Origin: a virus
Virus record (IMG/VR): IMGVR_UViG_3300024999_002256
Span: 1 to 27,981 of that record
Length of the DNA stretch: 27,981 nucleotides
Reading direction: 5' to 3' (one strand)
Part shown: positions 2,296 through 27,688 of the stretch, one piece after another
Position numbering within the stretch: position 1 is the first letter of the stretch
Layout of the letters: every line of letters begins with the position of its first letter
Notes under the pieces: generated by a model
What the model was told of the DNA's origin: nothing
Databases searched by the model: none
What the model saw: only the letters and a program-made list of their open reading frames with translations
Position numbers and translations under genes: made by a program

Positions 2296-2457
2296 CTATA
2301 CTTCCAAATCAAAAAACTTTTCCAAATCATAATCAATCTCCTTCAGTAACTTATCAATAAACTCAATACCCTTACTTGTAACAAGTGTTTGTGTTCGATT
2401 AACAATTTCTCCATCTGCATCAGGAATTGTATATTCTCTGACTACAAATAATTTTTG
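2296..2457 (-). pseudogene. 3' remnant of the phage antirepressor gene
   Basis: The last ~54 codons read KLFVVREYTIPDADGE followed by NRTQTLVTSKGIEFIDKLL, a pattern typical of the C-terminal end of phage antirepressors of the KilAC/Ant type. The frame stays open to about 2565, but upstream of 2457 the translation loses this character. The only early start there is a GTG with no Shine-Dalgarno site. This segment is best read as the 3' part of the gene whose 5' part is at 2938-3510. Compared with intact relatives, roughly 35-40 residues between the two parts (the IGRNKLF...PYQKY region) appear to be missing. This is recognition by pattern, not by alignment. Confidence 0.6.
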
Positions 2458-2491
2458 TTCAAAGTGTATAAAAAATAAATTTACATTAGAT

Positions 2492-2521
2492 AAAAGGCAT
2501 TTCTTAACTGAAATGTCTTTT
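2492..2521. terminator. Imperfect hairpin bounding the endonuclease insert
   Basis: aaaggcatttc and gaaatgtcttt pair over 11 positions with one mismatch and a short loop. There are T-runs on both sides, so it could terminate in either direction. It lies between the antirepressor remnant and the GIY-YIG gene, near the left edge of the inserted segment. Confidence 0.45.
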
Positions 2522-2642
2522 ATGTGTTGTAAATAACACAAATATAAAAGGATAGAGCAGTACACTCAAAAAGCACAATCCTTAGTGCCTTCCTTTTATC
2601 ATTATTTTCTAAGGAATAAAAAATATTAAAGGAGATGTTAAA

Positions 2643-2966
2643 ATGGATAATATTGAGGAAATAAAAATTATTGATCCTTATGGTTTTGTGTATGTGACCA
2701 CAAATATGGTAAATGGGAAGAAATACATAGGACAAAAAATGTTTCGTAAAGATTGGCAATATTATTTAGGTAGTGGAACATTACTGAAGAGAGCAATTAA
2801 GAAATATGGTAAAGAAAACTTTAGTAGAGAAATCATTGCTTTTTCCTATTCTAAAGAAGAATTAAATAATTTAGAGATTGAATTTATAAAAAATCATGAT
2901 TTAGTTTCTCATTCAACAATTGCGTTAGTTGTTAGATTTAAAGGAGTTTACAAATTAGTAATGTAA
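2643..2966 (+). CDS. GIY-YIG endonuclease, C-terminally truncated
   Basis: This 107-aa protein has the GIY-YIG nuclease signatures: YGFVYVTTN (residues 13-21), KYIGQ (27-31), YLGSGT, a KKYGKENF segment and LNNLEIEFI (residues 75-82) with the probable metal-binding glutamate. This is the Seg/homing-endonuclease type of GIY-YIG domain. A good Shine-Dalgarno AAAGGAGA lies at 2631-2638. After about residue 90 the expected continuation (a Y-N-GG-type segment and a DNA-binding C-terminus) is replaced by unrelated residues ending GVYKLVM. These are encoded antisense to the antirepressor end. The catalytic core is present but the DNA-recognition part is gone, so activity is doubtful. It sits inside the antirepressor gene on the opposite strand. 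Confidence 0.8.
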   Translation: MDNIEEIKIIDPYGFVYVTTNMVNGKKYIGQKMFRKDWQYYLGSGTLLKRAIKKYGKENFSREIIAFSYSKEELNNLEIEFIKNHDLVSHSTIALVVRFKGVYKLVM

Positions 2967-3510
2967 AAGTCCCATTTGCTCCAATCAACTGATCAAAACT
3001 TCTTGCTTTAGGAATTAATTCTTGTGCTTGTAATTCTAGTAATTTTCTTTCCTTTTTTTCTTTAAAATATGCAATTCCTCTTTCATCTTCATCCATATCG
3101 AGATAATCTTGAATAAATGATTCAATATCTGGAAGAAAAGCTTTTGCAAGAACATCTTTTGCTTTGAGTTGATATTCTACTAGATTATCAACTATTTTAT
3201 TTTCTGATTTCATTTTTGGAGTAATAGATATTTTAGCTAACCACAGTGGAAGAAACTCAAGTTCAATACATAAAAATTCTTGATTACCTCCATTAGTAGG
3301 GAGAACTAAATTTCGTTTCCCTTTAGAAAGTACGATGTCTTCTTGAATTCTTATTCTTTCGTTCTGCATTTGACCTTTGGTTAATCCAATTCCATTGCAA
3401 ACCCAATTTACTCCTACATAGCTTTTACCATCATTATCTTGAGCTACTAATATATTAGCTCCATTAAAATCCACTTCTTTAATCATTAATTCAGTTGTCA
3501 TTGTTGTCAT
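2938..3510 (-). CDS. Phage antirepressor, P22 AR-type N-terminal domain, truncated
   Basis: The product is 190 aa from ATG 3510, with AAAGAGG about 10 bases upstream. Residues ~8-125 match the P22-antirepressor N-terminal pattern: VDFNGANILVAQDNDGKSYV, an ICeaLGl-like VCNGIGLTKGQMQNERI segment, then FLCIELEFLPLWLAKI and the LVEYQLKAKDVLAKAF helix. A helical linker follows, ending LQAQELIPKARSFDQLIGAN. The expected C-terminal DNA-binding domain is absent: after GTFT the frame runs into ICKLL and a stop inside the GIY-YIG insert. Such proteins normally inactivate CI-type repressors and promote induction. Here the protein has lost its C-terminal half, which may lie in pieces at 2296-2457. It is transcribed leftward from a promoter at 3680-3708, with a leader of about 160 bases. 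Confidence 0.8.
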   Translation of the reverse strand: MTTMTTELMIKEVDFNGANILVAQDNDGKSYVGVNWVCNGIGLTKGQMQNERIRIQEDIVLSKGKRNLVLPTNGGNQEFLCIELEFLPLWLAKISITPKMKSENKIVDNLVEYQLKAKDVLAKAFLPDIESFIQDYLDMDEDERGIAYFKEKKERKLLELQAQELIPKARSFDQLIGANGTFTLLICKLL

Positions 3511-4656: not shown

Positions 4657-4827
4657 ATGGGTAAGTTATTTTATCTGCCTTGTGTTGATTATTATGAGGA
4701 ATATGGGAATTATTATAGTGAAGAGTTTGAGGAACAAGATTGTGGGAATTATGGTGAGGAAGTTAAAGATGGTTTGGTTAAGGGATTTGTTAGGAAATGT
4801 TTGATGTTTATTTTGGTTAGGTTGTGA
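4657..4827 (+). CDS. Very small hypothetical protein, 56 aa
   Basis: An open frame runs from ATG 4657 to TGA 4825-4827, only two bases after the stop of the preceding gene. The translation begins MGKLFYLPCVDYYEEYGNYY and is rich in Tyr, Glu and Gly. It ends with a basic/hydrophobic tail (RKCLMFILVRL). No strong Shine-Dalgarno is visible, so expression would depend on translational coupling. It shares the G-rich codon style of the end of the previous gene. It is plausible as a real gene because of the tight spacing and clean frame, but no family is recognised. Confidence 0.5.
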   Translation: MGKLFYLPCVDYYEEYGNYYSEEFEEQDCGNYGEEVKDGLVKGFVRKCLMFILVRL

Positions 4828-4851
4828 TTATTTTGATTTGTTAATATTGTT

Positions 4852-4881
4852 TTGATTCCTTTAAAATGCTTTTCATATGAT
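4852..4881 (+). promoter_or_regulatory. Probable promoter of the toxin-antitoxin pair
   Basis: TTGATT (4852-4857) and TATGAT (4876-4881) have an 18-base spacer. A start near 4888 excludes the ATG at 4877 and supports translation from 4922 or 5009. Confidence 0.45.
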
Positions 4882-4921
4882 TATCTTTTATGGTAAGATA
4901 TGTATGAAAGAAGGTGGTATC

Positions 4922-5143
4922 ATGAGAACGAAAACAAGGGTTAAAAGGGTTAGAAAATTATATTCTCGTAAAACAAAGGTAGAATTAATAAGTAAAAGGA
5001 GGTGCATGATGGTGGAAAAACAAGCAGAACCTTTGACTTGTATGAATGATATTAAATCTTTGATTCAGCAATCTATGAAGGAAAAAGGAATTAATTCTAA
5101 ACAAGCAAGAAAATCATTAGGAATTAAAAGATATGAGAAATAA
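4922..5143 (+). CDS. Putative antitoxin of the PIN toxin-antitoxin pair
   Basis: Small basic protein directly upstream of, and overlapping by 11 bases with, the PIN toxin gene. Two starts are credible. ATG 4922 (GAAAGAAGG upstream) gives 73 aa with an Arg/Lys-rich N-terminus. ATG 5009 gives 44 aa and has the strongest ribosome-binding site in the area (AAAAGGAGG, 4994-5002). The shared C-terminal part (VEKQAEPLTC... to KARKSLGIKRYEK-like end) is a short helical region that could wrap the toxin. An upstream ATG at 4877 is rejected because it coincides with the -10 box. The antitoxin role is inferred from position, size and overlap; no known DNA-binding fold is obvious. Confidence 0.6.
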   Translation: MRTKTRVKRVRKLYSRKTKVELISKRRCMMVEKQAEPLTCMNDIKSLIQQSMKEKGINSKQARKSLGIKRYEK

Positions 5144-5579
5144 GTTAAGTGTTGTCGTTGATACAAATGTTTTTCTTGATTCTTGGCTCGATGATGATAA
5201 AAATTGCAATAATATATTGGACTTAATTCTCAATAGGAAATTAAATTTATTATTTTCTCAAGATACTATTGGTGAATTAATTTATATTACTAAGAAATAT
5301 GCTATTAAAAATATGAGTAGCGAAAAACCAAGAATTGCTTTATTAAAACTTGTGATAGAGATGTTTTATTGGTCTAAATCTATTGATATTTCAAAAACAG
5401 AATGTCCTAAAATTAATGATCCATACGATGAAATGTTTTTAAAGACGGCAATTGAAGGAAAGGCTAATTATCTTATCAGTGAAGATCGTAAAAGTGGTAT
5501 GCATAAGGTCAAGTTGGAAGGGATTGAGATAGTTAGTTCTGAAGATTTTGTGAGTATGTATGAGAGATTAGTTGTTTAA
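5133..5579 (+). CDS. PIN-domain ribonuclease toxin
   Basis: This 148-aa protein has the PIN fold signature over its full length. It starts LSVVVDTNVFLDS with catalytic D10. E48 lies in the TIGELI helix, INDPYDEMFLKTA carries acidic residues D96 and D99, and YLISEDRKSG carries D118. Length and motif order fit the 'PIN-family toxin component' group (COG1569-like). Such toxins cut RNA and are held inactive by the partner encoded upstream. All acidic active-site positions appear present, so the toxin is probably functional. The start ATG overlaps the end of the antitoxin (ATATGAG...TAA), which implies translational coupling. In a phage the pair may serve maintenance or exclude other phages. Confidence 0.85.
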   Translation: MRNKLSVVVDTNVFLDSWLDDDKNCNNILDLILNRKLNLLFSQDTIGELIYITKKYAIKNMSSEKPRIALLKLVIEMFYWSKSIDISKTECPKINDPYDEMFLKTAIEGKANYLISEDRKSGMHKVKLEGIEIVSSEDFVSMYERLVV

Positions 5580-5591
5580 TTTGATAGTTTT

Positions 5592-5649
5592 ACAGAGGAT
5601 AAAAATTGAGAGTAATTAACTCAATGGGAACACTCCATCCCTCCTCTGT
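5592..5649 (+). terminator. Branched hairpin, probable terminator after the toxin gene
   Basis: An outer 8-bp stem acagagga/tcctctgt (5592-5599 with 5642-5649) encloses an attgag/ctcaat hairpin and a possible ggg/ccc pair. T-rich sequence follows (tatttatatatttttg). It is probably a terminator, but the three-way-junction shape is more elaborate than usual. Confidence 0.55.
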
Positions 5650-5719
5650 ATTTATATATTTTTGTTGGTGGGTTTATGTTATGATGGAGTAATAAATATG
5701 ATGGAGGTTAAAAGAAGAG

Positions 5720-7324
5720 ATGGGCAAAAATAATATAAAATACACATATGAAGAAGTTAAAATTATTATTAAAGAATATGGTTATGAATTAATTAGTAAA
5801 GAATATATAAATAGTAAAATTAATTTAACATTAAGAGATATTGATGGATATTTATATTTCAGTAATTTAAGTAGAATAATTAAAAATATTCAACCAAGTA
5901 AATTTGGAAATAACAATCCTTATACTTTTACAAATATTAAATTATGGTTTAAATTTAATACTTTTCCATTAGAATTAATCAGTGAAGATTGTATGGATGT
6001 TAAACAAACATTAATATTTAAGGATAAAGAAGGATATTATTACACTATAACTTTTAGTAATATTCAATTAGGAAAAATCCCAAGAAAATTTCATAAAAGT
6101 AATCCTTATACAATTAAAAATATTAAACTGTGGTTAGTATTAAATAACATGTCTAATTTTAAATTAATTACAGGTAAATACGTTGATCGTCAACAACTTA
6201 TTTTTAAAGATAGTAATGGATATATGTATTTGGGTAATTTTAATAGAATGCAACAAGGAGATATTCCTCGCAGATTTGATAAAAGTAATCCTTACACAAT
6301 ACAAAATATGAAATTATGGTGTAAATTAAATAATAAACCTTTTGAATTAATAAGTTACATATATAATGGGACATATGATAATTTACAATGGCAATGTTTA
6401 AAAGAAGAATGTGGAGAAATATTTGAAGCAAATTGGGCATGTATACATAGTGGTAGAGGTTGTAGTGTTTGTGTTGGAAGACAAGTAGGATTATCAAATT
6501 GTCTTGCCACACGAAGACCAGATTGGATATCTGAATGGCATTCAACCAAAAATGGAAACTTAACACCTTGGGACATAACCGAAAATTATAGTAAAGAAGT
6601 TTGGTGGCAATGTGAGAATAATCCTAAGCATATATGGAATATAAGTCCAAATGGTAGAAGTCATCATGATAGTGGTTGTCCTTATTGTTCTGGTAGATTA
6701 CCATCTGAAGATTATAATTTATTAATTATAAATCCTAAACTTTGTGAAGAATGGAATTATGAAAAAAATAATTGTAATATACCAGAACAATATTGCCCTA
6801 GTTCTGGTGATTATGTTTGGTGGAAATGTAAAAAATGTGGATATGAATGGATGGCAAAAATAAGTAACAGGAAAAATGGCAGAGGTTGCCCAGAGTGTGC
6901 TGAATCAAAAGGAGAAAAAGAGATAGACAATATTTTATTAAAGAATAATTGGACGAAAATTATTCAAGAAGAATATGATATATTAAGTAATTTTGATAAA
7001 CAAAAACAATATTACTTTATACCACAAAAAACATTTAAAAACTTACGTGGGGTTGGTAATGGGTTATTGTCTTATGATCATTATTTGCCAAATATTAATC
7101 TTTTAATTGAATATCAAGGGCAGTATCATGATGGTACGGTTAGTAATCAATCTGAAGAAGAATTCATAATACAAAAAGAGCATGATAAACGTAAAAGGGA
7201 ATATGCCGAACAGAATCATATTAAACTCTTAGAGATTTGGTATTGGGATTTTGATAATATAGAAACTATTTTAGATAATTATTTGAGTAATCTAAATAAA
7301 CCAATTGAACAAGTAATAAGATAA
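5720..7324 (+). CDS. Zinc-ribbon, Vsr-like (EDxHD-type) homing endonuclease, 534 aa
   Basis: Modular protein with three parts. Residues ~7-250 hold four repeats of about 60-65 residues, each with a pattern NPYT..NIKLW...N..F.LIS followed by L.FKD..GY.Y and F..IQ.G.IPR.F. The fourth copy has gained cysteine pairs (C226/C231, C248/C251). Residues ~255-395 hold zinc-ribbon repeats (C298/H304 with C320/C323; C370/C373 with C390/C393) and WW.C and EW motifs. Residues ~396-530 form a PD-(D/E)XK fold of the Vsr/I-Bth0305I type, with E399 or E401, D453 (SYDHYLP), E464 (IEYQGQYH), H470 and D489. All catalytic positions are present, so it looks intact. It is a free-standing gene between the toxin and the lipoprotein. 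Such proteins usually act as mobile site-specific nucleases. The start ATG follows GGAGGTTAAAAGAAGAG. Confidence 0.82.
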   Translation: MGKNNIKYTYEEVKIIIKEYGYELISKEYINSKINLTLRDIDGYLYFSNLSRIIKNIQPSKFGNNNPYTFTNIKLWFKFNTFPLELISEDCMDVKQTLIFKDKEGYYYTITFSNIQLGKIPRKFHKSNPYTIKNIKLWLVLNNMSNFKLITGKYVDRQQLIFKDSNGYMYLGNFNRMQQGDIPRRFDKSNPYTIQNMKLWCKLNNKPFELISYIYNGTYDNLQWQCLKEECGEIFEANWACIHSGRGCSVCVGRQVGLSNCLATRRPDWISEWHSTKNGNLTPWDITENYSKEVWWQCENNPKHIWNISPNGRSHHDSGCPYCSGRLPSEDYNLLIINPKLCEEWNYEKNNCNIPEQYCPSSGDYVWWKCKKCGYEWMAKISNRKNGRGCPECAESKGEKEIDNILLKNNWTKIIQEEYDILSNFDKQKQYYFIPQKTFKNLRGVGNGLLSYDHYLPNINLLIEYQGQYHDGTVSNQSEEEFIIQKEHDKRKREYAEQNHIKLLEIWYWDFDNIETILDNYLSNLNKPIEQVIR

Positions 7325-22563: not shown

Positions 22564-23889
22564 ATGGCTTTTGAATTTAATAATCCACTTTTGTATGAGC
22601 TTCGCGAGGGGAGTGCCCTTGACCCATTTGTACCGCTATCCACGACATCTGTAATTACAAGTAATAAAATAGTATTGACGGAACTACCTAATCAATTCGA
22701 GGGTGTAACAATATCTGGATACGCAGAATCTAAAAATCCAAGTGAATTAATAGCTACAACATTTTATTGTAATTATATAAATGGTATTGTATCTTTCGCG
22801 AGTTCAGAAAATGGCAAAACTGTAACTGCTAATTTTAAAGGTAGAGGAATTGTCCAAATACCTGCTGAAAGAATTTATAGCACAGATGGAAATGGTGTAG
22901 TTGAAACTCTCCAAAATATGATAAATTCAGGCTTAGTAGCAATTGAATCTTTAGGAGGATTAACTACAGCCATTTCTACTGCTCAAGCTTTAGAAACAGA
23001 ATTGGATTCAGATATTTCTACGGGAAATATATTAAAATCAGATTTAGATGATTCAATTGATTCTGCAACAATTATAAATGGAACTTTAGATGGAACTATT
23101 GAAACAGCAAATATTTCAATAGGAGAATTAAATGAAACTAATGCTTCAGTTCAAGCAAACGAATTAACTAGAATCTCTCAAGAAAATATTCGTGAATTAC
23201 AAGAAGATAATCGTCAAAATACATATTCATCTTCATATGTAAAATTTAAAGGAGTTGTTACAGGAATTGCATCTCTCCCAACATCTAATAATATTCTTGG
23301 TGATACATATCAAGTAATAGATGATGCTACAACATCAAATAATGCAATGTGGAGATATAATGGAACTATTTTTGAAAAATCATATGTATTAGATTTAACT
23401 TTTGCAGGAGGATATGGAGCAAATAATAGTCAGGTTTTTACAGCAACGGCAAATCAAACTGTGTTTACTTTGACTGAATTTCCATATTTAATTGGTGTTA
23501 ATCAATTAATGGTATATGTTACTGGAATTAAGCAAATTATTGGAGTAAATTATACTGAGACTAGTACAAATTCATTTACTTTAACTAGTGGTGTTGTTGC
23601 AGGAACAAAAGTAGAAGCATTTAGAAGTGTTCCTGGAGGAGCAGGAAGTTTAACTACTCAAGAGGTAGAAAATGCTAGAGTTAGTTCATTGGGGATTGGG
23701 TATGCGAATCTTAAAGCTAGGTTGGATGATCATGATAGTAATAAAGTAGGGGTTTTAGCTAATTTAAATACTAGTGTTAAGACTGATATTGTTAGTGCTA
23801 TTAATGAAGTAGTAAAAAAAGTAAGTGTTGGCGCAATTGCACCAGAGAATCCATCACAATTTCAGCTATGGATTGATACTGATGCTTAA
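22564..23889 (+). CDS. Tail fibre / baseplate protein, 441 aa
   Basis: The N-terminal ~110 residues form a beta domain common in Firmicutes siphovirus fibres: KIVLTELPNQFEGVTISGY, FYCNYINGIVSF, ending FKGRGIVQIPAERIY. Residues ~120-225 are short helical repeats (L..DI.TG..LK.DLD pattern), likely a trimeric coiled shaft. Residues ~225-375 are beta modules: a YVKFKGVVTGIASLPTS segment with GDTYQVID and W.YNGT.F, then QVFTATANQTVFTLTEFPYL with QLMVYVTG and a threonine-rich end. The C-terminus (DIVSAINEV...APENPSQFQLWIDTDA) is the usual finish of such fibre proteins. ATG 22564 follows AAAGGAGGAAAGTAA. It probably carries or attaches the SGNH fibre encoded next, from which it is separated by an endonuclease cassette. 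Confidence 0.78.
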   Translation: MAFEFNNPLLYELREGSALDPFVPLSTTSVITSNKIVLTELPNQFEGVTISGYAESKNPSELIATTFYCNYINGIVSFASSENGKTVTANFKGRGIVQIPAERIYSTDGNGVVETLQNMINSGLVAIESLGGLTTAISTAQALETELDSDISTGNILKSDLDDSIDSATIINGTLDGTIETANISIGELNETNASVQANELTRISQENIRELQEDNRQNTYSSSYVKFKGVVTGIASLPTSNNILGDTYQVIDDATTSNNAMWRYNGTIFEKSYVLDLTFAGGYGANNSQVFTATANQTVFTLTEFPYLIGVNQLMVYVTGIKQIIGVNYTETSTNSFTLTSGVVAGTKVEAFRSVPGGAGSLTTQEVENARVSSLGIGYANLKARLDDHDSNKVGVLANLNTSVKTDIVSAINEVVKKVSVGAIAPENPSQFQLWIDTDA

Positions 23890-23902: not shown

Positions 23903-23912
23903 GGAGGAACTA
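23903..23912. repeat. 10-bp direct repeat, left copy
   Basis: ggaggaacta. An identical copy lies at 25755-25764. The two enclose both endonuclease-type genes. The left copy serves as Shine-Dalgarno of the first endonuclease gene. Confidence 0.8.
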
Positions 23913-24892
23913 ATGATTGTATTACCACAAAAAGTAAAAATAAAATGGTCTCCATTTGGACGTAAATTTTATGAGCCAAATGGGTATATATTTACTAAAT
24001 ATTATGAGGAATTTGAAGTAGATGTTCTAGATTTGCCAGATGGCAGTAATGTTTTTATTGATGTTGTTTGTGATTATTGTGGCGAAGTCTTTAATAAAAA
24101 ATATAGTCATTATACAGATATGAAAAAGAAAAATAAAATAACAAAAGATTGTTGTAGTAATTGTACGTCAGAAAAAACACGAGAAAGTAATATGATTACC
24201 TATGGAGGAAGCCCATCATCTAATTATAATGTACAAGAAAAGCTAAAACGAACAAATTTAAATAGATATGGTGTAGAATATTGCTCGCAAAACAAAGACG
24301 TACAAAATAAAACAAAACAAACTAGTATGGATAGATACGGAGTAAATCATTATTCCAAAACAGATGAATGTAAGGAAAAATATGTAAATACATGCCAAGA
24401 GAGGTATGGTTTTGATAACACATTTCAAGTAGAAGAATTTAAAGAAAAATCTAAAGAAACATGTTTAGCATTATATGGTTTTGAAAAAGCAATACAAAAT
24501 CCAGAAATTAAAGCAAAAGCAGTTAAAACTCTATATGAGAACGGAACATGTCCTACATCTTCTCAACAATTAGATATATATAATATGTTAAATGATTTCG
24601 GTTATAATGTAGAATTAAACTATCCTCTAAGTAGAATTAATATGGATGTTGCTATTTTATTGATGATATAAAAATAGATTTAGAATATGATTGCTATCAT
24701 TGGCACAAAGATCAACAAAAAGATAGAAGGCGTGACGAGTTCACGAAGTCTCAAGGATGGAAAATTCTAAGGATTAAAAGTGGACATAAAATACCATTGT
24801 TAGAACAAATCGTAGAATCTATTGATAAATTAGTTAGTTCAGATAGAACTTTTACACAAATAATATTAGATGATTGGAAATTAGTAGTATGA
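23913..24892 (+). pseudogene. DUF723-repeat, Vsr/DUF559-like homing endonuclease, frameshifted
   Basis: The first frame gives 252 aa (23913-24671). It has a CxxC...CxxC zinc knuckle (C53, C56, C81, C84) and then five 22-23-residue repeats with a YG motif (Y97, Y119, Y142, Y165, Y188) of the DUF723 type, thought to bind DNA. The frame stops just after RINMDVAI. With one extra base in the T-run at about 24654-24657 the reading continues as IFIDDIKIDLEYDCYHWHKD and then RRRDEFTKSQGWKILRI to TGA 24890-24892. That restores a complete Vsr/DUF559-type PD-(D/E)XK nuclease of 326 aa. The frameshift removes the catalytic residues, so the gene is inactive unless this is a sequencing error or a slippage site. 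The Shine-Dalgarno AAGGAGGAA is strong. Confidence 0.82.
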
Positions 24893-24923
24893 TGCATACC
24901 ATATAAATAATCAGAAGACGAGA

Positions 24924-24950
24924 AGACAGATTAATTTATCTGTCTTTTTT
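24924..24950 (+). terminator. Terminator between the two endonuclease genes
   Basis: An 8-bp perfect stem agacagat/atctgtct (24924-24931 with 24938-24945) has a 6-base loop and is followed by five T. It ends one base before the GIY-YIG start codon. Confidence 0.75.
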
Positions 24951-24951
24951 G

Positions 24952-25767
24952 ATGTGTAATTTTAAGAAAGGTTGTGTTTATATAAATAGAAATAATACAT
25001 ATGGAATAATTTATTGTGCTTTAAATACTGTAAATAATAAAAGATATATTGGTCAGACAATTAGAGATTTGAATAAAAGAAAGAAAGAACATATTAGTTT
25101 AGCGAATAATGGTAGTAAGTTCGCTTTTCATTTAGCAATTAACAAATATGGAGAAGATGTTTTTGAGTGGTCAACAATTGATGTTGCGGATAGTCAAGAA
25201 GAATTGGATAGTAAGGAATCATATTGGATTGAGTTTTATGACTGCTATCATAGTGGTGGATACAATATGTCGGTAGGTGGGCAATTTAATAAAAAGACAG
25301 ATAATAATGCAGATTATTTATCTATGATGAATGGTGGTAAGGAATTTTTAGTTTTTGATATTGACGGTAATTTCGAAAAGAGTATGTATTCTCAATCTGC
25401 ATTGGCTATTGAGATTGGGAGTTGTGTGCAGAGTGTAAATAATGTTTTACATGAAAAGGTTGGAAAACATTCGGTTAAAGGTAAAATAATAATATTTAAA
25501 GATAAATTTGCAAATGAGAAACTACAAGATAAGTTAATAAAGATTAAAAGTATACATAAAGAATTCGCGGTATTTGATATAGACAATAACCTTATTGGTA
25601 AGTGGTCAAATTACACTCATTGTAATAGAGATACAAACATTAGTGCTAGAAATATTGAAAAACAATTGAAAGAAAATACGAATAGAGAAAATTGTAGAAA
25701 ATATAAAGTTTATTATATTGAAGATATTCCAGATAATCTAAAATACTTACTAGAGGAGGAACTATAA
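24952..25767 (+). CDS. GIY-YIG homing endonuclease with two NUMOD1-type modules, 271 aa
   Basis: Residues ~16-110 are a complete GIY-YIG domain: YGIIYCALN (G18-Y21), RYIGQT (Y32-G34), basic NKRKKEH with R43, HLAINKYGEDVF, SKESYWIEFY with probable metal-binding E89, and GGYNMSVGG. Then come two NUMOD1-like DNA-binding modules, one from KEFLVFDIDGNFEKSMYSQS to IFKDKF (residues ~130-185) and one from KEFAVFDIDNNLIGKW (about 200-255). It is the architecture of an intact free-standing homing endonuclease. TTG 24949 and ATG 24952 are adjacent; ATG is preferred. No Shine-Dalgarno is visible because the terminator lies directly upstream, so translation may be weak or begin at a non-standard codon after GAAAGG at 24965-24970. 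Its last codons (GAG GAG GAA CTA) form the ribosome-binding site of the next gene. Confidence 0.88.
   Translation: MCNFKKGCVYINRNNTYGIIYCALNTVNNKRYIGQTIRDLNKRKKEHISLANNGSKFAFHLAINKYGEDVFEWSTIDVADSQEELDSKESYWIEFYDCYHSGGYNMSVGGQFNKKTDNNADYLSMMNGGKEFLVFDIDGNFEKSMYSQSALAIEIGSCVQSVNNVLHEKVGKHSVKGKIIIFKDKFANEKLQDKLIKIKSIHKEFAVFDIDNNLIGKWSNYTHCNRDTNISARNIEKQLKENTNRENCRKYKVYYIEDIPDNLKYLLEEEL
25755..25764. repeat. 10-bp direct repeat, right copy
   Basis: ggaggaacta, identical to 23903-23912. Here it is both the end of the GIY-YIG coding sequence and the Shine-Dalgarno of the fibre gene at 25770. Confidence 0.8.
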
Positions 25768-25769
25768 TA

Positions 25770-27602
25770 ATGGCAAAAGATAAATATTGGGATGGAACAG
25801 CATGGCAGGAAGTCGGCGCGAGTGCCAATAAAGTAACTCTAATTGATAATGGAAATATTATAAATGCGACTGATGTGGAAGGTGCTTTGCAAGAAATTGT
25901 AACCAACATTGCTGAATCTAAGGCTGATACTACGTCGGAACTTGCTTTAAGAGCCTATCAAACTGATTTGGATACAACTAATTCAAATGTAGCTGATAAT
26001 GATTCTAGGATAACGGTACAAGAAAATAAATTAACATCTCCAACTGATTGTACGCCAGAGTTATTGGCACAAATAGCAGGGACAACTGCAATTAATGCTA
26101 TCCCTGCTGACTATTCAATAGTTAATAGACAACAAAAATATCCCGTAGTTGTCGGCATTGCAAGCAAAAATTTATTTGACTTAACTGACATTACTGCTGG
26201 CAATTATGTAAGTTCTTCAACCGGACTATTATCAGCAAATGCAAGTTATACAGCTAGTAATTATATTCCTGTATCCCCTTCTACTGCTTACTCCGTTACC
26301 GCCGTGGGGCAACAATCAGCGTGGTATGATTCCGCGAAAGTATTTATAAGTGGTGGCAACACTGGGGCAAATATGGTTTCGCCTGTTAATGCTGCTTGGT
26401 TAAGGGTGTCAATAACGAATGCCCAAGTATCGGCACAACAAATAGAATTAGGGTCTACTGTTACTGCATTTGAAAGCTTTTATCCAAAGATAGACAGTAC
26501 ATTATTAAAGAACGATGCTGTAACAACATTAAAAGTTATGGATGAGGCAATTACTGCTCCGAAAATTTCAGACTATGCAATCACCTCAAGAAAGTTCAAA
26601 TATCCTACGGTTGTCGGTATAGCTAGTAAAAATTTATTTGATAAAACCGACATTACTATTGGTAAGTATGTAAGTAAAACAACTGGTGCTTTAAACACAC
26701 TAGCTGGTTATAATGCAAGTAATTATATTCCTGTATCCCCTTCTACTGCTTATTCCATGTTAATTGCAGGTCAACAGTTCGCATGGTATACCTCTACTAA
26801 AGTATTTATTAGTGGGGGGGATTCGGGGGCTAATAAAACCTCACCGTCAAATGCGTCATTTATAAGGTTGTCGATGAACGATTCCCAAGTAAGTACGATG
26901 CAACTGGAATTAGGGGTAACTGTTACTGGTTACGTTGGGTTTAACCCTACGGTAGATCCTTTAGTTACTCCATACGTTTATCGTAAATTGGCTAATAAGA
27001 AATGGAACGCAATGGGGGATAGTTTTTCATATTTGGATTTATATGTTACTAGTGTTGGTGCAAGATTGGGTTTAACAACTGTTAATAATTATGGTATTGG
27101 TGGTTCAACCATTGCACAAAATGATGTGGGAGATTCTACTGATGCTATGTGCTTGAGGTTTTCCGCTATGGATGCAACAGCCGACATAATTACTGTTTTT
27201 GGTTGTACTAACGATTTTGGAAGCGGTATTCCTATGGGTGCTATTAGTGATGGTACAGGATTGCAATCTTTCAAGGGTGGTCTAAAAATCCTTATTGAAG
27301 GAGTACTTACACAAAGTCCTAATGCAAAACTTCAATTTATCACTAGTCCACAACGAAATTATTTGGGTGCAGGAAATGGGCCAAATGGAATCGGATTATA
27401 TCTCGTAGACTATGTTAATGCAATGTTAGAGGTATGTGCTCTTTATGGTATTCCTGTTTTGGATTTATACAGATTATCGGGGGTATCACCTTTCAATATT
27501 GGGGTTGATAGTGCGTATTCCGACGATGGGTTGCACTTTAATACGACATTAGGTAAAGCTAGATTGGTGGATATGATTGCACCATTTATGAGTAATAATT
27601 AA
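25770..27602 (+). CDS. Tail fibre protein with C-terminal SGNH/GDSL esterase, 610 aa
   Basis: The N-terminal ~120 residues are a fibre shaft (start MAKDKYWDGTAWQEVGAS, then helical NATDVEGALQEIVTNIAES). Residues 123-~270 and 277-~398 are two copies of one beta module (YP.VVGIASKNLFD.TDIT, SNYIPVSPSTAYS, KVFISGG.(T/S)GAN, Q.ELG.TVT). Residues ~410-610 are an SGNH hydrolase: block I GDSF with nucleophile S418, an NYGIGGST glycine block, GCTNDF with N481, and DDGLHF with D586 and H589. All catalytic residues are present. The expected activity is deacetylation or ester cleavage of wall or capsule polysaccharide during adsorption. The gene is richer in G and C than its neighbours, suggesting host-range-driven module exchange. 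The ribosome site GGAGGAACTATAATA lies in the end of the upstream GIY-YIG gene. Confidence 0.87.
   Translation: MAKDKYWDGTAWQEVGASANKVTLIDNGNIINATDVEGALQEIVTNIAESKADTTSELALRAYQTDLDTTNSNVADNDSRITVQENKLTSPTDCTPELLAQIAGTTAINAIPADYSIVNRQQKYPVVVGIASKNLFDLTDITAGNYVSSSTGLLSANASYTASNYIPVSPSTAYSVTAVGQQSAWYDSAKVFISGGNTGANMVSPVNAAWLRVSITNAQVSAQQIELGSTVTAFESFYPKIDSTLLKNDAVTTLKVMDEAITAPKISDYAITSRKFKYPTVVGIASKNLFDKTDITIGKYVSKTTGALNTLAGYNASNYIPVSPSTAYSMLIAGQQFAWYTSTKVFISGGDSGANKTSPSNASFIRLSMNDSQVSTMQLELGVTVTGYVGFNPTVDPLVTPYVYRKLANKKWNAMGDSFSYLDLYVTSVGARLGLTTVNNYGIGGSTIAQNDVGDSTDAMCLRFSAMDATADIITVFGCTNDFGSGIPMGAISDGTGLQSFKGGLKILIEGVLTQSPNAKLQFITSPQRNYLGAGNGPNGIGLYLVDYVNAMLEVCALYGIPVLDLYRLSGVSPFNIGVDSAYSDDGLHFNTTLGKARLVDMIAPFMSNN
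26136..26960 (+). repeat. Tandem duplication of a fibre beta module
   Basis: Copy 1 starts at 26136 and copy 2 at 26598, an offset of 462 bases (154 codons). Both begin AAATATCC and share blocks such as the 16-base aattatattcctgtat and the segment aaaaatttatttga. Conservation at the DNA level is high in these blocks, so the duplication or gene conversion is fairly recent. Confidence 0.8.
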
Positions 27603-27660: not shown

Positions 27661-27688
27661 AAAGAGAGTAATTAATTTTACTCTCTTT
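27661..27688 (+). terminator. Terminator after the fibre gene
   Basis: A perfect 10-bp stem aaagagagta/tactctcttt (27661-27670 with 27679-27688) has an 8-base AT loop and is followed by ctcaa. It ends the tail operon. The remaining 200 bases up to 27890 are AT-rich and hold no gene; a weak TTGATT(N16)TATGAA pair at 27762-27789 may be a promoter for the lysin. Confidence 0.75.

Follow-up and report, generated by a model that had tools for sequence, protein, structure and literature searches.

Organization of the fibre locus

The window analysed here, a viral metagenome record of 27,981 bases, carries two nuclease genes between two fibre genes. The initial annotation had bounded this cassette by two copies of the ten-base sequence GGAGGAACTA, and it gave both the coordinates of the copies and the anatomy of the cassette correctly. 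The locus contains the following features.

22564-23889, + strand: fibre gene 1, 441 aa, ending in ..GAIAPENPSQFQLWIDTDA and a stop (PHROG 11315, unknown function)
23830-23886, + strand: final 19 codons of fibre 1, encoding the left half of the fibre module (xAPxxPxxxxxWIDxx)
23903-23912, + strand: left copy of GGAGGAACTA, the Shine-Dalgarno sequence (SD) of the DUF7487-family ORF, abutting its ATG at 23913
23913-24671, + strand: N-terminal part (252 aa) of a DUF7487-family nuclease gene (Pfam PF24308, 100 bits; PHROG 12131, homing endonuclease)
24653-24892, + strand: out-of-frame remainder of that gene, a DUF559 nuclease-like half in the -1 frame (PF04480, 23.1 bits against a cut-off of 20.6)
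24920-24949, + strand: hairpin resembling a terminator, with a T-run behind it, ahead of the GIY-YIG gene (folding energy -14.1 kcal/mol; z -4.6)
24949-25767, + strand: GIY-YIG homing endonuclease gene (PF01541, 36.7 bits), frame open for 272 codons, start uncertain
25755-25764, + strand: right copy of GGAGGAACTA, the last sense codons of the GIY-YIG gene and the SD of fibre 2
25770-25907, + strand: anchor at the fibre-2 N-terminus (MAKDKYWDGTAWQEVG..ATDVEGALQEIV), conserved and made up of the right half of the module and a linker
25770-27602, + strand: fibre gene 2, 610 aa, with a GDSL-lipase-like tip (PF13472; PHROG 5240, tail fibre)

Homologues of fibre 1 were found in L002-L005, L014 and L024, with SPO1-group tail spikes as weak relatives, and a fibre-1 end of the window type recurs in L002, L014, L024, L025 and L169. 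The order fibre 1, hairpin, GIY-YIG gene, fibre 2 is shared by four viral contigs (L002, L014, L024 and L025; the four relatives below), placing a homing endonuclease between two fibre genes in all five phages, as had been described for the window.

Both of the proposed endonuclease genes are present, but the DUF7487-family gene is frameshifted: the shift precedes the DUF559 half, which leaves the N-terminal part and the nuclease domain in different frames. An intact homologue (L082, from the phage of L003) has an open frame of 386 residues, and its alignment with the window protein ends where the window frame shifts. The window gene appears to be broken, or else the shift is an assembly or sequencing error. 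Its protein belongs to the same family as those encoded by the DUF7487/DUF559 genes of phages such as the Lactococcus AM phages, from which the window gene differs in being frameshifted. Among the five phages it occupies the fibre junction in the window alone and is absent there from L002, L014, L024 and L025.

The GIY-YIG gene ends in the Shine-Dalgarno sequence of fibre 2

The GIY-YIG gene of the window has its catalytic domain in an open frame, and homologues of its product also bear NUMOD1. It lies outside any self-splicing intron or intein, the ORFs of the locus being separate, with their own starts and stops, and without an Rfam intron. The GIY-YIG proteins at the fibre junctions of L014, L024 and L025 are 50-68% identical to that of the window. 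Full-length proteins at least about 50% identical to it were found only at the fibre junction, remoter ones occurring elsewhere, such as a 47% relative in L005 that precedes an amidase gene and is without the EEEL tail described below. The GIY-YIG frames of the window, L014, L024 and L025 have dN/dS values of 0.21-0.42, indicative of purifying selection. The L024 copy opens with an ATG that a good SD precedes; the window has AAT there, and since no conventional start codon is found at the homologous place, the gene may be inactive in the window.

At its 3' end the frame reads CTA GAG GAG GAA CTA TAA, with the right copy of GGAGGAACTA standing 5 nt before ATG 25770. The initial annotation had recognised that this copy both closes the GIY-YIG gene and acts as the SD of fibre 2. 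The observation extends to 5 of 5 phages (the window and the four relatives), the GIY-YIG frame of each containing the fibre-2 SD near its 3' terminus. The frames end in ..GAGGAGGAACTATAATAATG (window and L002), ..GAGGAGGAAGTATAATG (L014), ..AGGGAGGCGAGCTAATG (L025) and ..AAGGAGGAATATAATAATG (L024, where the two frames overlap by 14 nt), so that the SD-bearing last residues are EEEL, EEEV, KEEYN or REAS; within the native GIY-YIG tail before the fibre-2 start, the SD letters are GAGGAGGAA. L002 has a different GIY-YIG gene at the site, but of the window-type gene it retains the last 95 codons, a small ORF with the same SD at its end and a dN/dS of 0.20 against the window, again indicative of purifying selection. 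From these sequences we infer that the embedded SD is probably the one used by fibre 2. As the closing codons of the endonuclease frame contain it, loss of the element would remove the SD, and the gene could not simply be deleted.

Two further observations concern GIY-YIG genes of the group. At L002:4226-5744 one GIY-YIG gene appears to replace most of another, with the fibre-2 ribosome-binding site left in place. A second GIY-YIG type of 254 aa, without the EEEL tail, is found at L024:5663-6427 and L005:10496-11260, the latter with its own hairpin upstream and an amidase gene downstream.

A terminator-like hairpin precedes the GIY-YIG gene

In all five phages a strong hairpin followed by T's lies after fibre 1 and before the GIY-YIG gene (z -3.4 to -4.6), and in L024 the pairing of its stem is kept by a compensated change, GACAGG/CCTGTC for GACAGA/TCTGTC. 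This terminator-like element, which the initial annotation had missed, stands before fibre 2 in every one of them, and expression of fibre 2 behind it needs read-through or a promoter; a promoter scan for the latter gave no excess over shuffled sequences. Near-neutrality of such insertions, as put forward in the initial annotation, is conjectural in view of this hairpin. Fibre 2 is likewise followed by a hairpin with T-runs (27661-27688), and hairpins between tail genes seem common in the group.

The element lies at the exact division of a fibre module

The position of the element coincides with the exact division of a fibre module between two ORFs, ..GDLWIDT being encoded on one side and ..KYWDGTAWQ.. 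on the other. Fibre 1 always ends in ..P....WID(T/L).. and fibre 2 always starts with M(V)AKxKYW(D/N)GxxW. Unrelated phages encode the same module without a break, within one ORF, with the consensus APTxPTTGDLWIDTSxxPNxLKYWNGTAW. When an intact example, from L045, was modelled with AlphaFold2 (63 residues, mean pLDDT 74, core 85-90), WID and KYW came out on consecutive strands, and the split point fell in the hairpin turn between them.

Most pairs of fibre-2 proteins have only their first 43-74 residues in common, their downstream tips being mostly unrelated, and the shared N-terminal anchor has a dN/dS of about 0.06-0.25. On the other side of the junction, fibre 1 of L025 has little in common with those of the other four phages beyond its end. 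A protein search with the fibre-2 N-terminus gave no match among 50,697 phage records, one with the virtual junction gave only weak contiguous matches in other phages and nothing useful in plasmids, and a profile search of genome contigs with the fibre-1 C-terminus found nothing.

Origin of the divided module

One relative has the divided module without an endonuclease. In L169, a Bacillus sp. ISL-45 prophage, two fibre ORFs are joined by 15 nt: the first ends in ..NILWIDTN and a stop, followed by AAGGAAGGTGAAGAA and by an ATG that opens AKQKYWDGDSWEVIG.., a layout of stop, 15 nt and ATGGCCAAGCAAAAATATTGGG. The direct joining of the fibre genes that had been predicted for a locus without the cassette is therefore seen here, but with an SD that differs from GGAGGAACTA. 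L169 is distant (57% amino-acid identity over the fibre-2 N-terminus), and public collections together with about 1,000-1,400 Bacillota genomes contained no further endonuclease-free two-ORF junction. In L003 and L004, which are also free of the endonuclease, the fibre is encoded by a single ORF. As the sole empty junction comes from so distant a relative, the borders of the insertion are not readable base by base.

Two alternative origins of the split were weighed. In one, to which we give an even chance, the module has always been built from two proteins, and the endonuclease entered a gap that was already there. L169 fits this reading, as does the finding that an intergenic site is normal for free-standing seg/mob genes (PMC2988022); on the other hand, an endonuclease is present in 5 of the 6 two-ORF cases and in none of the contiguous ones.

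In the other, which is credible but which we hold to be rather the less probable outcome, an endonuclease was inserted into a single fibre gene and split it at the WID/KYW hairpin turn, leaving a gene in pieces, much as mobE did with nrdA of phage Aeh1; L169 would then have lost its endonuclease later and retained the split. The module is contiguous in unrelated phages, as described above, and all five endonuclease carriers begin a new ORF at the module. Among 19 relatives without the endonuclease, the fibre-2 linker motif lies inside a long ORF in 18 (including two near-identical copies; L030 is the same as L003), L169 being the one with two ORFs. In L003 the parts that flank the junction in fibre 1 and fibre 2 occur in one ORF, the module itself being absent. 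Against these points stand L169, split without an endonuclease, the fibres of L017 and L018, which start naturally at a WDGTAWQ motif, and the hairpin after fibre 1, which resembles a normal gene end of the kind found behind other tail genes. L169 speaks against treating the splitting of a single fibre gene by the endonuclease as certain; as a possible origin, such a splitting is compatible with the explanation that we prefer overall, set out in the Discussion.

The ten-base repeat and the composite-unit model

The initial annotation had interpreted the cassette as one unit of two endonucleases that inserted at a Shine-Dalgarno site and duplicated its ten-base target as direct repeats. Two exact and rightly placed copies of GGAGGAACTA, the only matches in the window, favour this, and it was correctly pointed out that removal of the insert with one copy would leave a working SD before ATG 25770. 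However, the window holds 2,769 pairs of exact 10-mer repeats, 527 of them within 2 kb. Moreover, both copies are SDs in a phage group that uses GGAGGA, which precedes 17 starts, that of fibre 1 included (window and seven related loci; genes of at least 80 codons). As GGAGGA or GGAGGAA is already common to two SDs of the window phage, only about 4 bases are left to explain. The repeat is a chance likeness of two ordinary SDs and does not rise above chance.

In L002, L014, L024 and L025, GGAGGAACTA is absent after fibre 1, and all four have the GIY-YIG gene without the DUF7487 gene and without the left copy, which implies that the two nucleases arrived separately and that the left copy belongs to the DUF7487 gene. 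Thus, neither joint movement of the two genes nor above-chance repeats at both borders were found. A search of the relatives for an empty site with a single GGAGGAACTA gave none; the sole empty junction reads TAA-AAGGAAGGTGAAGAA-ATG and bears another SD. Homing through break repair makes no target duplications, a further point against the model. The initial annotation had named unrelated intergenic sequence in relatives free of endonucleases, or a repeat that is simply a common ribosome-binding motif, as evidence against its proposal, and we found both, the former in a distant relative (57% amino-acid identity, fibre-2 N-terminus). By comparison with the four relatives the model is largely refuted and very improbable, target-site duplication through the ten-base repeat being rejected on account of these phages and of the abundance of 10-mer repeats. 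Weaker still, with next to no probability, is a group I intron or twintron bearing the endonucleases within one fibre gene, which their position between the halves of one module would resemble, since fibre 1 is closed by a stop codon, fibre 2 starts from an SD and ATG of its own in 6 of 6 phages, and Rfam gave no intron match, a permissive threshold included.

Other features of the window

A P22_AR_N-type antirepressor gene (2296-3510, - strand) is interrupted in the window, whereas its counterpart in L003 (4793-5782) is intact: in place of about 44 codons it has a segment with a SegE-like GIY-YIG ORF on the opposite strand (2643-2966, + strand; PF19835, 59.9 bits), a second, gene-breaking endonuclease insertion in the window. 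A 534-aa protein with DUF4379 treble-clef zinc fingers (5720-7324; PF14311) is possibly the product of another nuclease gene, and a small ORF (4877-5143) immediately precedes the gene of a PIN-domain protein (5133-5579), with which it may form a toxin-antitoxin pair. A leucine-rich-repeat protein is encoded at 100-1119, and L004 has a similar-looking ORF (4753-5766) a short way upstream of its fibre 1.

Discussion

We consider it very probable that a free-standing GIY-YIG gene sits at the gap of a divided fibre module and carries the fibre-2 SD in its own frame, that the DUF7487 gene was inserted later and that the repeat arose by chance. In such a sequence of events, the GIY-YIG gene, with the terminator-like hairpin upstream of it, would have lodged between two ORFs that encode halves of one module, fibre 1 contributing the WID strand and fibre 2 the KYWDGTAW strand. 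The GIY-YIG enzyme would cut the endonuclease-free junction, and break repair would then copy its gene into the site. The gene would thereby take the place of the spacer and provide the SD of fibre 2, its frame reaching up to or into the fibre-2 start and its last codons doubling as SD. We infer that the GIY-YIG gene came first and that the DUF7487/DUF559 gene, with its own SD, was inserted later between fibre 1 and the hairpin; this second insertion would be limited to the window lineage, where the gene would since have been frameshifted.

Elements of this kind are known from the T4 seg/mob genes; the site at a divided fibre module is new. T4 seg enzymes cut DNA, and their genes are copied in by break repair (PMC2988022), and by analogy the window enzyme probably cuts the fibre junction and homes. 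Like the GIY-YIG gene of the window, segA-segG lie between conserved genes, but the neighbours of the window gene are those of a fibre shaft and a fibre tip, and its homing is putative. T4 segG contains the promoters of gene 32, an embedding that is said to favour retention (PMC2988022); where segG embeds promoters of its downstream gene, the window GIY-YIG gene embeds an SD in its last codons.

Endonuclease genes are also found between ORFs that encode one folding unit, as in the window, in Aeromonas phage Aeh1, in which mobE splits nrdA, and in phage 25, in which a seg-like gene lies in the split gene 43 (43A/43B), reviewers being undecided whether as maker of the split or as later entrant (PMC2988022). 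The window group differs from these cases in dividing a small fibre module in otherwise largely unrelated fibre pairs, and in that one endonuclease-free split (L169) is known. In HEG islands, nuclease genes lie at boundaries of genetic exchange (PMC10448857), and the GIY-YIG gene of the window likewise borders conserved and exchanged structural genes. Exchange of fibre tips by the window enzyme would be hypothetical, and synonymous divergence in the flanks of the window element gives no clear sign of recent co-conversion: on the right flank it is 0.3-1.4, not clearly below that of the GIY-YIG gene itself, with perhaps a weak indication of recent co-conversion between the window and L002.

A more speculative extension, which we think unlikely but worth stating, is that shaft and tip dock by complementation of the split hairpin and that endonuclease breaks in the gap aid tip swaps. 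Fibre 1 would end with one strand (..GDIWIDL) and fibre 2 begin with its partner KYWDGTAWQEVG, so that any tip with this N-terminus would fit any shaft with that C-terminus, while the endonuclease, which its embedded SD would hold in place, would break the DNA in the gap and aid the exchange of fibre tips.

Taken together, the direct-repeat account of the locus is wrong, the observation on the SD was right, and the main interest of the locus is the divided fibre module. The case of GGAGGAACTA is a reminder that, in AT-rich phage DNA, short repeats on either side of genes are frequently no more than shared Shine-Dalgarno sequences. In five phages with mostly different fibre tips, the last codons of a homing endonuclease gene contain a fibre gene's ribosome-binding site, which extends the embedding known for T4 promoters to translation signals and makes the window case the translational counterpart of segG. 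The divided module itself is a testable candidate for the docking and exchange of fibre tips.
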